DNA from: Paracoccaceae bacterium
GTDB lineage: Bacteria > Pseudomonadota > Alphaproteobacteria > Rhodobacterales > Rhodobacteraceae
NCBI GenBank assembly: GCA_023263735.1
Contig: JALQUQ010000195.1
Span: 1-5,394, forward strand
DNA length: 5,394 nt
Reading direction: 5' to 3'
Part shown: positions 3,204 to 5,394 of the stretch, in pieces
How the letters are laid out: every line of letters begins with the position of its first letter
Position numbering within the stretch: position 1 is the first letter of the stretch
Notes under the pieces: model-generated
Seen by the model: only the letters and a program-made list of their open reading frames with translations
Databases searched by the model: none
What the model was told of the DNA's origin: nothing
Program-made: the position numbers and the translations under genes

Positions 3204-3224
3204 TCCCCTGCAGGCCAAAAACGA

Positions 3225-3250
3225 AAAGGCCGCCCGGAAAGGCGGCCTTT
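3225..3250. terminator. bidirectional intrinsic terminator
   Basis: AAAGGCCGCC (3225-3234), loop CGGAAA, GGCGGCCTTT (3241-3250) is a perfect 10-bp hairpin between two convergent genes. On the plus strand it lies 21 bases after the ketosynthase stop but only three Ts follow the GC part. On the minus strand, after the IalB gene, the stem is followed by TTTTCGTTTTT, so termination should be stronger in that direction. Confidence 0.85.
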
Positions 3251-3276: not shown

Positions 3277-3891
3277 TTATGGGTTGGTCTTGGACACTTC
3301 GTCATAGCCGGCGGTAAAGCCCTTCAACGACAGGTCCACCGAAATCCGTTCTTCGGGAAGGGCGGCAGGCACCATGCTGAGGGTGGCTTTTGCGCCTTTG
3401 CGGAACTGTTCGACCTCGGCTTTGGTAAAGCCGACGCGGGCGACACAGCCCTCTTTGTAGCAGAAGGTATAGGGGTAAAGCTTGGCCTTGCCGCCGTCGA
3501 TCGCCAGCGTCAGGTTTTCGGTCAACAACACCTCAAGCGGCACAACGATCGTGGCACCTGCGGCCGCCTCTCCGCCCTCGGGCAGATTGAACATGCTGAA
3601 TTCGGCAACCGAATTGCCATCCTTGTCCTTCAGCAGCTGATAAAGCTGGCACGAATCCGTGCCCGTTTCTGCCTTGACGCAACGCTGTTCCCACAGGTCG
3701 TTGGTCGCCTTGACATACATCGTGCCCGGCGCATTCGGGTCGGCAACTTCGGCACCCATGTTCAAATCGTTTGCGGTTGCCGCATCAGCGGGAGCCGCCG
3801 CATCCTGTGACCAAGCGGTCATGGGGACTGCCATCAAAAGGCTGACAAGGGCTGCGGATTTGGCAAGGGAAGCGATCGACGTCGTTTTCAT
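3277..3891 (-). CDS. invasion-associated locus B (IalB) family secreted protein
   Basis: The 204-residue product begins with a clear Sec signal peptide: K2, a hydrophobic core around SAALVSLLMAVPM, and a likely cut after AWS (residue 28), so it is exported to the periplasm or outer membrane. The mature part starts with a low-complexity Ala/Asp/Pro stretch. A domain of the IalB family then runs from about residue 58 to 200, with the typical W-E-Q-R-C, DSCQLYQ and PYTFCYKEGCVARVGF segments. The four cysteines in these segments could form disulfides. The family is named after a Bartonella protein needed for red-cell invasion, but it is widespread in free-living alphaproteobacteria, where its role is unknown; no virulence role should be assumed here. 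The ATG at 3891 is chosen because AGGA lies six bases upstream and the signal peptide then has normal length; in-frame ATGs at 3909 and 3918 would add 6 or 9 polar residues. It stands alone on the minus strand. Confidence 0.9.
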   Translation of the reverse strand: MKTTSIASLAKSAALVSLLMAVPMTAWSQDAAAPADAATANDLNMGAEVADPNAPGTMYVKATNDLWEQRCVKAETGTDSCQLYQLLKDKDGNSVAEFSMFNLPEGGEAAAGATIVVPLEVLLTENLTLAIDGGKAKLYPYTFCYKEGCVARVGFTKAEVEQFRKGAKATLSMVPAALPEERISVDLSLKGFTAGYDEVSKTNP

Positions 3892-4047: not shown

Positions 4048-4072
4048 AAAAAAGGGCCGGCAATCCGGCCCT
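4048..4072. terminator. intrinsic terminator, strong on the minus strand
   Basis: AGGGCCGG (4053-4060), loop CAAT, CCGGCCCT (4065-4072) is a perfect 8-bp hairpin. Reading the minus strand, the stem runs directly into six Us (4053-4048), a textbook terminator. Reading the plus strand it is followed by CTTCTTTTT and more Ts, so it may also work that way, although no plus-strand gene ends here. It is best explained as the end of the minus-strand small RNA at 4116-4048, and it insulates the IalB-family gene from it. Confidence 0.85.
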
Positions 4073-4116
4073 CTTCTTTTTATTTTTTTGCTCCCTGTCG
4101 GACTGGCCGACTTCAT
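4048..4116 (-). ncRNA. candidate small RNA, possible sponge (sRNA-B)
   Basis: A transcription unit of about 69 nt is framed by a good promoter (TTGACG, 17 bases, TAGCGT at 4153-4125) and a strong intrinsic terminator (4072-4048). No open reading frame of use lies within it. The predicted start is about 4116 (A) or 4114 (G). The RNA would contain a 5' hairpin (GUCGG, loop CCAGU, CCGAC; 4111-4097), then a single-stranded AGGGAG, a long A-rich linker with purine triplets of the kind Hfq binds, and the terminator hairpin with its U tail. This is the layout of a trans-acting, Hfq-type small RNA. Positions 4109-4091 are complementary to the neighbouring candidate RNA at 4235-4217 (18 of 19 pairs). 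I do not recognise a named family. Boundaries and expression are inferred. Confidence 0.6.
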
Positions 4117-4124
4117 GAGGGCAG

Positions 4125-4153
4125 ACGCTATTGCGCTTTCTGGCAGGCGTCAA
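4125..4153 (-). promoter_or_regulatory. sigma-70 type promoter of sRNA-B
   Basis: Minus-strand TTGACG (4153-4148; five of six consensus bases) and TAGCGT (4130-4125; first, second and last bases of TATAAT) are 17 bases apart. It is the best promoter in the window. It sits about 38 bases past the upstream terminator and fires towards the terminator at 4072-4048, defining a short non-coding unit. Confidence 0.6.
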
Positions 4154-4190
4154 CAGTGAAAATGCGGGTTTTTCGCAGGAAAAAAGGTGT

Positions 4191-4219
4191 AAAAAAACCG
4201 CGCCGTTTTACGGGCGCGG
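4191..4219 (-). terminator. intrinsic terminator of the upstream small RNA
   Basis: On the minus strand CCGCGCC (4219-4213), an 8-nt loop CGTAAAAC, GGCGCGG (4204-4198) is followed directly by seven Ts (4197-4191). On the plus strand the As come before the hairpin and no T run follows, so it acts on minus-strand transcripts only. No minus-strand protein gene ends here, which implies a non-coding transcript. Confidence 0.75.
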
Positions 4220-4246
4220 CCAGTCTGACAGGGAGGAAGTCCAAAC
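4191..4246 (-). ncRNA. candidate small RNA with anti-Shine-Dalgarno loop (sRNA-A)
   Basis: This is the supported 3' core of a minus-strand non-coding RNA ending at the terminator 4219-4191. The core has a hairpin at 4246-4223: GUUUG(G)AC and GUCAGAC form seven pairs (one G-U) with one bulged G, closing a 9-nt loop UUCCUCCCU. That loop contains UCCUCC, complementary to GGAGGA ribosome binding sites, as in the anti-Shine-Dalgarno loops of alphaproteobacterial small RNAs such as the cuckoo/CcsR type, though it is not the same sequence. The 5' end is not determined. A full transcript could begin near 4296 (about 105 nt), using TTGCGC and CCATAC (4330-4325 and 4307-4302, 17 apart), a weak promoter guess. 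Alternatively the core is a processed form. Likely job, if real: blocking translation of several mRNAs. Confidence 0.5.
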
Positions 4247-4279
4247 GACACAACAACTGCTGTGCCGGTATCGGAAAGT

Positions 4280-4308
4280 CTGGCACCAGAACGTTAACAA
4301 TGTATGGT
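4280..4308 (+). promoter_or_regulatory. possible promoter of the HerA-like gene
   Basis: CTGGCA (4280-4285) and TATGGT (4303-4308) are 17 bases apart, matching four of six consensus bases each. Transcription would start near 4315 and give a leader of about 49 bases. The -10 overlaps a possible minus-strand -10 (CCATAC, 4307-4302), so divergent promoters may share this region. Evidence is by eye only. Confidence 0.35.
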
Positions 4309-4363: not shown

Positions 4364-5394
4364 GTGACCGATCAACCGGTGATTTTTGTAGGTGGTGGGG
4401 GGGAGGGCTATGGGCAGCCCCAGACGCTTTTGCTCAAATATGGCAATCGGCATGGTCTGATCGCAGGCGCGACCGGAACGGGAAAGACGGTCACCCTGCA
4501 GATTCTGGCCGAGGGCTTTTCGGCCGCGGGGGTTCCTGTCTTTCTGTCCGACGTCAAAGGCGATCTGTCGGGCATCGGGGCCAGCGGGTCGGCCAGCCAC
4601 AAATTGCACGATCCTTTCATGAAACGGGCCGCGACCATCGGGCTTGATCTGCAATACCGGTCTTTCCCGGTCACATTCTGGGACCTTTTCGGCGAACAAG
4701 GACATCCGATTCGGGCCACCGTGGGGGAAATGGGGCCTTTGCTGCTGTCTCGCCTTCTGGAACTGTCCGAACCGCAAGAAGGCGTGTTGAACGTGGCCTT
4801 TCGCTTGGCGGACGAAGAAGAGCTTCCGCTCTTGGACATGAAAGACCTGCGCGAATTGCTGATCTATATCGGCGAGAATGCCGAACAGATTTCAACGCGC
4901 TATGGTCTGGTTTCGACCCAGTCGATTGGCGCGATCCAAAGGCGGTTGCTGGTGCTGGAAAACGAAGGCGGCGCGCGCCTGTTCGGCGAGCCGGCCCTGG
5001 ATCTGAACGATTTGTTCCTGACCGATGCCCAAGGGGCAGGGCGGGTCAATATCCTTGCCGCCGACAGGCTGATGCAATCGCCCCGGCTCTATGCCACCTT
5101 TCTGTTGTGGATGTTGTCGGAACTGTTTGAAAACCTGCCCGAGGTGGGGGACCCGGACAAGCCGAAGCTCGTCTTCTTTTTCGACGAAGCGCATCTGTTG
5201 TTTCAGGATGCGCCGCGCGCGTTGGTGCAAAAGGTCGAACAGGTGGCGCGTCTGATCCGGTCCAAGGGGGTTGGGGTCTATTTCATCACCCAAAATCCGG
5301 CGGATGTGCCCGACACCATTCTGGGCCAATTGGGCAACCGGGTGCAGCATGCCTTGCGCGCCTTCACGGCCAAAGACCAGAAAGACCTGCGGCT
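4364..5394 (+). CDS. HerA-like P-loop ATPase, DUF853/YjgR family (3' partial)
   Basis: The first 343 codons are present with no stop before the window edge; the E. coli relative YjgR is about 500 residues, so about a third is missing. Walker A is GATGTGKT (residues 35-42), preceded by [10 protein letters not shown]. The Walker B segment is [13 protein letters not shown], with the acidic pair at Asp274-Glu275. Other YjgR-like stretches are [59 protein letters not shown] and [20 protein letters not shown]. The last of these resembles sensor and arginine-finger regions of the HerA/FtsK/VirD4 ATPase class. No signal peptide or membrane segment is seen, so it should be cytoplasmic. The family is widely conserved, but its physiological role and substrate are not established; a DNA-translocating function is assumed from fold alone. 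Start GTG at 4364 is supported by the site at 4354. The family call is firm; function is not. Confidence 0.93.

Follow-up and report, generated by a model that had tools for sequence, protein, structure and literature searches.

The 5,394-nt stretch of Paracoccaceae DNA analyzed here (the window) contains a conserved predicted sRNA gene whose product, RNA2, is likely a common sponge of the adjoining RNA1, of SorX and of a third SorX-like RNA. By sequence, the gene is a conserved unit with promoter-like boxes and a foldable terminator; it is complementary to SorX-type RNAs and co-occurs with them. The most probable reading of the sequence comparison is that SorX-type anti-Shine-Dalgarno sRNAs in general are sponged by RNA2 and that its neighbor RNA1 is only one target. 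RNA1 and RNA2 form a minus-strand tandem, flanked by an IalB gene and a divergent HerA_C/DUF853 gene, with the following features:

3277–3891, minus strand: IalB-family gene, the conserved neighbor downstream (PF06776, E 4e-38).
4048–4118, minus strand: RNA2, a predicted sRNA of ~70 nt, its 5′ end placed from the −10 box.
4048–4077, minus strand: intrinsic terminator of RNA2 (fold).
4091–4109, minus strand: antisense domain of RNA2, CGGCCAGUCCGACAGGGAG, complementary to SorX-type RNAs (arm comparison, predicted binding and pattern search).
4097–4111, minus strand: 5′ hairpin of RNA2, GUCGG-CCAGU-CCGAC, 5 bp (fold and consensus fold).
4125–4153, minus strand: promoter-like boxes of RNA2, TTGACG (4153–4148) and TAGCGT (4130–4125), separated by 17 nt (conserved boxes).
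4191–4275, minus strand: RNA1, a predicted SorX-like sRNA with uncertain 5′ end.
4191–4221, minus strand: intrinsic terminator of RNA1 (fold and consensus terminator scan).
4217–4238, minus strand: anti-Shine-Dalgarno/pairing domain of RNA1, UUCCUCCCUGUCAGACUGGCCG (sequence comparison).
4364–5392, plus strand: HerA_C/DUF853 gene, the divergent conserved neighbor, cut by the window end (PF05872, E 1.5e-166).

Among the matches listed, a divergent HerA gene was found upstream at 134 of the 143 loci of sufficient length, and an IalB gene with the orientation of RNA2 downstream at 136 of 140. Elsewhere in the window, a GC-rich hairpin followed by a T run (3221–3250), likely a terminator, separates the IalB gene from a ketoacyl-synthase gene convergent with it; its weak Rfam matches (rnk_pseudo, RNAI) are below cut-off.

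The original prediction placed two minus-strand units at this locus, ending at 4191 and 4048 and each carrying one arm of a 19-nt inverted repeat. Both terminators indeed fold (4221–4191 and 4077–4048), and the arms at 4091–4109 and 4217–4235 are complementary at 18 of 19 positions, extendable to 22-nt arms at 91%. Arms of this quality at least 30 nt apart did not occur in any of 300 dinucleotide shuffles of the 472-nt intergenic region, the best score being 17, reached once. The consensus terminator scan lists the RNA1 terminator on the minus strand; at the RNA2 terminator (4053–4072) it lists a hairpin only on the plus strand.

In the predicted fold (z −4.15), RNA2 consists, from 5′ to 3′, of the 5-bp hairpin, an open AGGGAG, an A-rich linker and the terminator. 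The AGGGAG at 4096–4091 is unpaired beside the GUCGG/CCGAC hairpin, as had been proposed. Conservation is concentrated in the antisense domain, while the sequence of linker and terminator varies across the alignment. A covariance model of RNA2 (R1), to which the window sequence itself belongs, matches the window at 4048–4116 with 72 bits, and no Rfam 15 family cut-off was reached by RNA2 when the window was scanned, the only match being a weak one to DnaX (E 0.49). A coding role was rejected on the basis of the alignment by eye, in which relatives share no common reading frame and linker lengths and start codons differ. Of the separate promoters originally proposed, that of RNA2 is well supported: TTGAC-N16-18-TAnnnT is found upstream of RNA2 in 150 of 151 loci among the matches listed, with a spacing of 17 in 145 (scored as the best of spacings 16–19). 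A stricter sigma-70 scan of the window reported no promoter in the RNA1/RNA2 region.

RNA1 (fold z −3.53) comprises a 5′ hairpin, an open stretch with UUCCUCCCUGUCAGACU and the terminator, and its covariance model (R2), which likewise includes the window sequence, matches 4191–4244 with 62 bits. The anti-Shine-Dalgarno loop described initially was retained only in part, since in the fold of the 85-nt RNA1 CUCCCU is open between 5′ hairpin and terminator and closes into a loop only when a shorter RNA is folded, in a weak structure. RNA1 resembles SorX (RF02784) in the succession CCUCCCUGU...GAC...UGGCC followed by a terminator, and mmgR/suhB RNA (RF00519) in a CCUCCCU segment followed by a terminator. 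Scores in the window are below the gathering cut-offs for both SorX (20.5 bits, E 0.18, vs. 46.6) and mmgR/suhB (20.7 bits vs. 41); in the relative G021, the RNA1 place reaches 48.6 bits with the SorX model, above cut-off. RNA1 differs from SorX in location, occupying the HerA/IalB intergenic region rather than the 3′ side of an OmpR-type gene. Upstream of RNA1, a TTAAY element, which may resemble a CtrA half-site, is present in 97 of 104 RNA1-bearing vs. 12 of 43 RNA1-less loci among the matches listed; a regulator of RNA1 might bind there. In the window this element is GTTAAC (4293–4298) and falls between two promoter-like boxes directed toward the HerA gene (TGGCAC 4281–4286 and TATGGT 4303–4308, plus strand).

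BLAST of the region gave matches in 31 of 61 genomes, including the window's own. All 30 loci retrieved contain RNA2, with RNA1 adjoining in 16 and lacking in 14, the latter being 13 of the 16 members examined of the window's own genus plus G022. This frequent solitary occurrence of RNA2 speaks against the self-contained switch envisaged originally. Decayed-looking RNA1 terminators are observed in three RNA1-less loci (L004, L008, L015), and a similar remnant in L050. A pattern scan of named genomes yielded at least 120 further RNA2 loci, mostly from Rhodobacteraceae, Paracoccaceae, Rhodobacterales or genera recognized as such with some broader labels, and one contig of a viral collection. Because the pattern is the RNA2 core, near-invariance of RNA2 is built into these 121 loci; RNA1 presence and the RNA2 promoter are not. 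RNA1 adjoins RNA2 in 105 of 151 loci among the matches listed (motif search within 220 nt upstream). The viral-collection contig (L151, IMG/VR) carries RNA2 at its end (12583–12604) and looks like chromosomal DNA filed in a virus collection because an IalB gene lies downstream. The plasmid and phage collections contained no match.

Using Infernal with stricter filters for both the family-wide and the class-wide search, we found R1 matches at E ≤ 0.001 in 133 of 150 family genomes, single in 129 and double in G028, G031, G141 and G184. Two of the 133 are discounted, G119 (4.6e-4; the place was inspected and is not RNA2) and G141 (7.2e-4). By eye, six of the 17 family genomes without a match hold a diverged RNA2 downstream of RNA1 (G016, G019, G030, G062, G128 and G172). 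The class-wide draw gave matches in 16 of 241 genomes: four in the family (E 2.5e-9 or better) and 12 in other families (E 4e-5 or worse), which we take as chance. Judged from these searches, the predicted sRNA gene of RNA2 occurs family-wide, mostly in a single copy.

SorX, which has been studied as a stress sRNA in a model phototroph, reportedly has a link, by the title of the SorX paper, to a polyamine transporter and to resistance to singlet oxygen. In the window's genome SorX (70.2 bits, G000:C60) lies on the 3′ side of a gene for a response regulator (domains Response_reg and Trans_reg_C), and the R2 and Rfam SorX models detect further RNAs of the SorX type in most family genomes. These include a third SorX-like group in relatives, copies of which lie 3′ of a LysR-family gene in G007 and G017 (two loci checked); with the R2 model, no member of this group was detected in the genome of the window, which is incomplete. 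In many relatives (L212–L230) a SorX-like sRNA carries CTCCCTGTTGGACTTnGGCC preceding its terminator; in L232 and L233, the two loci checked, it is located 3′ of a LysR-family gene, and several copies score above the SorX cut-off. SorX is closely followed by a second SorX-like unit in L197 and L203 (G008 and G036) and at G010:C1:142668-142807; by sequence, SorX-type sRNAs are themselves sometimes in tandem.

RNA1, SorX and the third SorX-like RNA have in common a segment of the type CUCCCUGU-n-GAC that is complementary to the conserved domain of RNA2. Of 40 retrieved candidates for SorX or the third group, 39 contain CUCCCUGU-N1-3-GA[AC] and 33 the fuller CUCCCUGU-N1-3-GAC-N0-3-GGCC; the latter misses six of 20 SorX-set sequences, including SorX of the window's genome, which reads CUCCCUGUUGGAACUGGCC. 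Across 10 genomes the fuller pattern occurs at 25 places in nine, with none in G028, compared with two for the reversed-pattern control. Nineteen of the places are SorX-type RNAs (6 RNA1, 6 SorX or tandem copy, 7 third-group), five are RNA2 genes on the opposite strand and one (G033) was assigned to neither.

RNA2 and SorX-type RNAs also occur together. All 14 BLAST-found genomes with RNA2 alone contain a SorX match above the Rfam cut-off. All 40 family genomes drawn, by order of handle, from those with clear RNA2 matches gave a SorX-model match, 39 of them above cut-off, vs. 4 of 13 family genomes without convincing RNA2 (G032, G122, G135 and G141), none above cut-off (Fisher p 1.6e-7, phylogeny ignored); such a match can be RNA1 itself, as in G032. 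The 13 RNA2-negative genomes are the 11 remaining without R1 match plus G119 and G141, with G081 excluded for its diverged RNA2.

Binding was estimated from dimer partition functions because GC-rich terminators dominate whole-RNA duplex predictions, which were dropped as uninformative; the control consisted of 200 RNA2 sequences with shuffled 5′ domain. For the window, predicted binding of RNA2 amounts to −22.7 kcal/mol with RNA1 (0 of 200 shuffles as good) and −17.8 kcal/mol with SorX (1 of 200), and non-cognate pairing of window RNA2 with the third-group RNAs of G007 and G017 to −18.6 and −15.4 kcal/mol (0 of 200 each). Together with the 18/19 arms, the strong predicted duplex with RNA1 supports the initial view of two mutually antisense RNAs. 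The complementarity of the antisense domain to SorX and the third SorX-like sRNA elsewhere in these genomes, with somewhat weaker predicted binding (−15.4 to −18.6 kcal/mol), is a further argument against a self-contained switch. As in a QrrX-like sponge, RNA2 is complementary to the conserved pairing domain of its predicted sRNA partners.

Among the matches listed, all 105 cognate RNA1:RNA2 core duplexes are at least as strong as −29.0 kcal/mol, compared with a mean of −15.2 kcal/mol and a best value of −28.9 kcal/mol for shuffled RNA2 cores. Cognate and reassigned partners hardly differ in this set (permutation fraction 0.05 for the 105 pairs and 0.12 for 68 distinct pairs) because both arms are nearly invariant. 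With 16 divergent genomes added, cognate pairs beat reassigned ones (permutation fraction 0.001, 79 distinct pairs, phylogeny ignored), and the 16 divergent pairs by themselves give 0.0019, or 0.0099 without G062 and G081 (phylogeny ignored). Compensatory changes of the arms, looked for in relatives, are found in some and lacking in others. One or both arms have changed with complementarity kept in G078, G112, G151, G019 and G128. A paired change, CUUG in RNA1 and CAAG in RNA2, is present in L022, G112 and G151; in G078 the RNA2 stem is rebuilt and the usual mismatch becomes a pair; and in G019 and G128 the RNA2 hairpin differs, antisense pairing is kept and AGGGAG is still open in the fold. 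On the other side are uncompensated changes in L148, L009, L025, L064 and L074 and poor pairing in G081 (−16.6), G062 (−19.0) and G149 (−23.8). The sequences thus point to modest covariation between RNA1 and RNA2. The downstream RNA2 as a likely titrator of RNA1, proposed originally, gains support from the predicted duplex and some of these paired changes.

We envisage that pairing would start at the open AGGGAG of RNA2, which is predicted to pair with the open CUCCCU of a SorX-type RNA while the 5-bp hairpin of RNA2 opens, yielding a predicted duplex of ~14–19 bp that, with RNA1 as partner, would extend into the terminator stem. The duplex would hide the anti-Shine-Dalgarno segment, so that the partner would no longer repress its mRNAs, and RNase E or III would probably hasten decay of one or both RNAs. 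Such loss of function and decay upon pairing is suggested by analogy to known sponges such as QrrX (PMC9732341, in the portion accessible). Where RNA1 has been lost from the locus, RNA2 would presumably be kept for other SorX-type partners. RNA2 could have additional mRNA targets.

The complementarity equally fits a regulation in the reverse direction, with RNA2 as an effector sRNA acting on its own targets and SorX-type RNAs as redundant inhibitors; the persistence of RNA2 without RNA1 would agree with this. We nevertheless consider it unlikely, as the conserved part of RNA2 is its antisense domain, the complement pattern picks almost only SorX-type RNAs, and SorX-type matches also turned up beyond the family, in genomes that yielded no convincing RNA2; such RNAs therefore need no RNA2 target. 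Alternatively, the RNA2 hairpin and AGGGAG could be the site of an RNA-binding protein, with the complementarity to SorX-type RNAs a by-product of Shine-Dalgarno relatedness. The hairpin stem is almost invariant in the aligned set (a consequence of the search itself for loci found by pattern), but the complementarity spans the loop and GGCC, past the Shine-Dalgarno motif, antisense pairing stays in G019 and G128 where the hairpin differs, and RNA2 co-occurs with SorX-type RNAs, which makes this explanation quite improbable. The chance that both arms, which lie on the same strand 107 nt apart, merely form a long hairpin in one read-through transcript appears minute given the strong terminator between them, the conserved promoter-like boxes belonging to RNA2 and the many loci with RNA2 but without RNA1.

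The original prediction had also drawn a comparison with StsR of Rhodobacter. In Rhodobacter sphaeroides, which belongs to the same family, this orphan sRNA acts on another sRNA (accessible text of PMC8307010, PMC8625941 and PMC11354728). There, StsR is reported as RpoHI/HII-dependent and as targeting UpsM from the dcw leader. RNA2 has boxes that look sigma-70-like (TTGAC/TAnnnT), and its candidacy as an UpsM binder was not supported: with UpsM located by position upstream of mraZ, predicted pairing in three of three genomes did not go beyond 30 shuffles (−7.2, −7.0 and −5.1 vs. shuffled means of −7.6, −6.8 and −4.7), and for RNA1 no notable pairing with this region was predicted in the three genomes either. 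From these models RNA2 does not look StsR-like, a distinction drawn from UpsM pairing and promoter boxes rather than from the StsR sequence. Orthology with StsR is therefore very unlikely, and only the analogy stands.

A parallel to RNA2 as a common sponge is QrrX of Vibrio cholerae, the sponge of Qrr1–4, in which one dedicated sRNA is directed against the conserved pairing domain of several related RNAs and both pairing sequences and promoter region are conserved (PMC9732341, accessible portion). The host group is different, and the likeness is one of arrangement, not of compared sequence. QrrX adjoins the regulator gene qrrT and was demonstrated by RIL-seq and mutants (same portion of PMC9732341), whereas RNA2 adjoins one of its predicted targets and is itself predicted. 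In relation to SorX, RNA2 is complementary to the family and not a member of it. The literature searched on sponges in Rhodobacter and Alphaproteobacteria, with supplements and most subscription papers outside its scope, contained no RNA2-like RNA. A published sRNA list may already include RNA2 without naming it; for Ruegeria pomeroyi (PMC4809877) and for Paracoccus denitrificans (PMC5107571), the list entries in the parts accessible were not mappable to the locus. The P. denitrificans list includes "Intergenic 134", an abundant 84-nt sRNA described there as conserved across Rhodobacteraceae, which could be one of the RNAs of this analysis (PMC5107571, accessible part).

We incline, by a little, to the view that RNA2 founds a new family-wide RNA family, as the master antagonist of an anti-Shine-Dalgarno sRNA superfamily comprising RNA1, SorX and the LysR-linked copy; the tandem locus would let the sponge and one target be set together. 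If true, most genomes of the family would possess an antagonist of SorX and SorX paralogs, a control layer unreported in the literature searched, and the constancy of so short an RNA would be explained. The idea of an sRNA controlling sRNAs would then be testable with a few point mutations.
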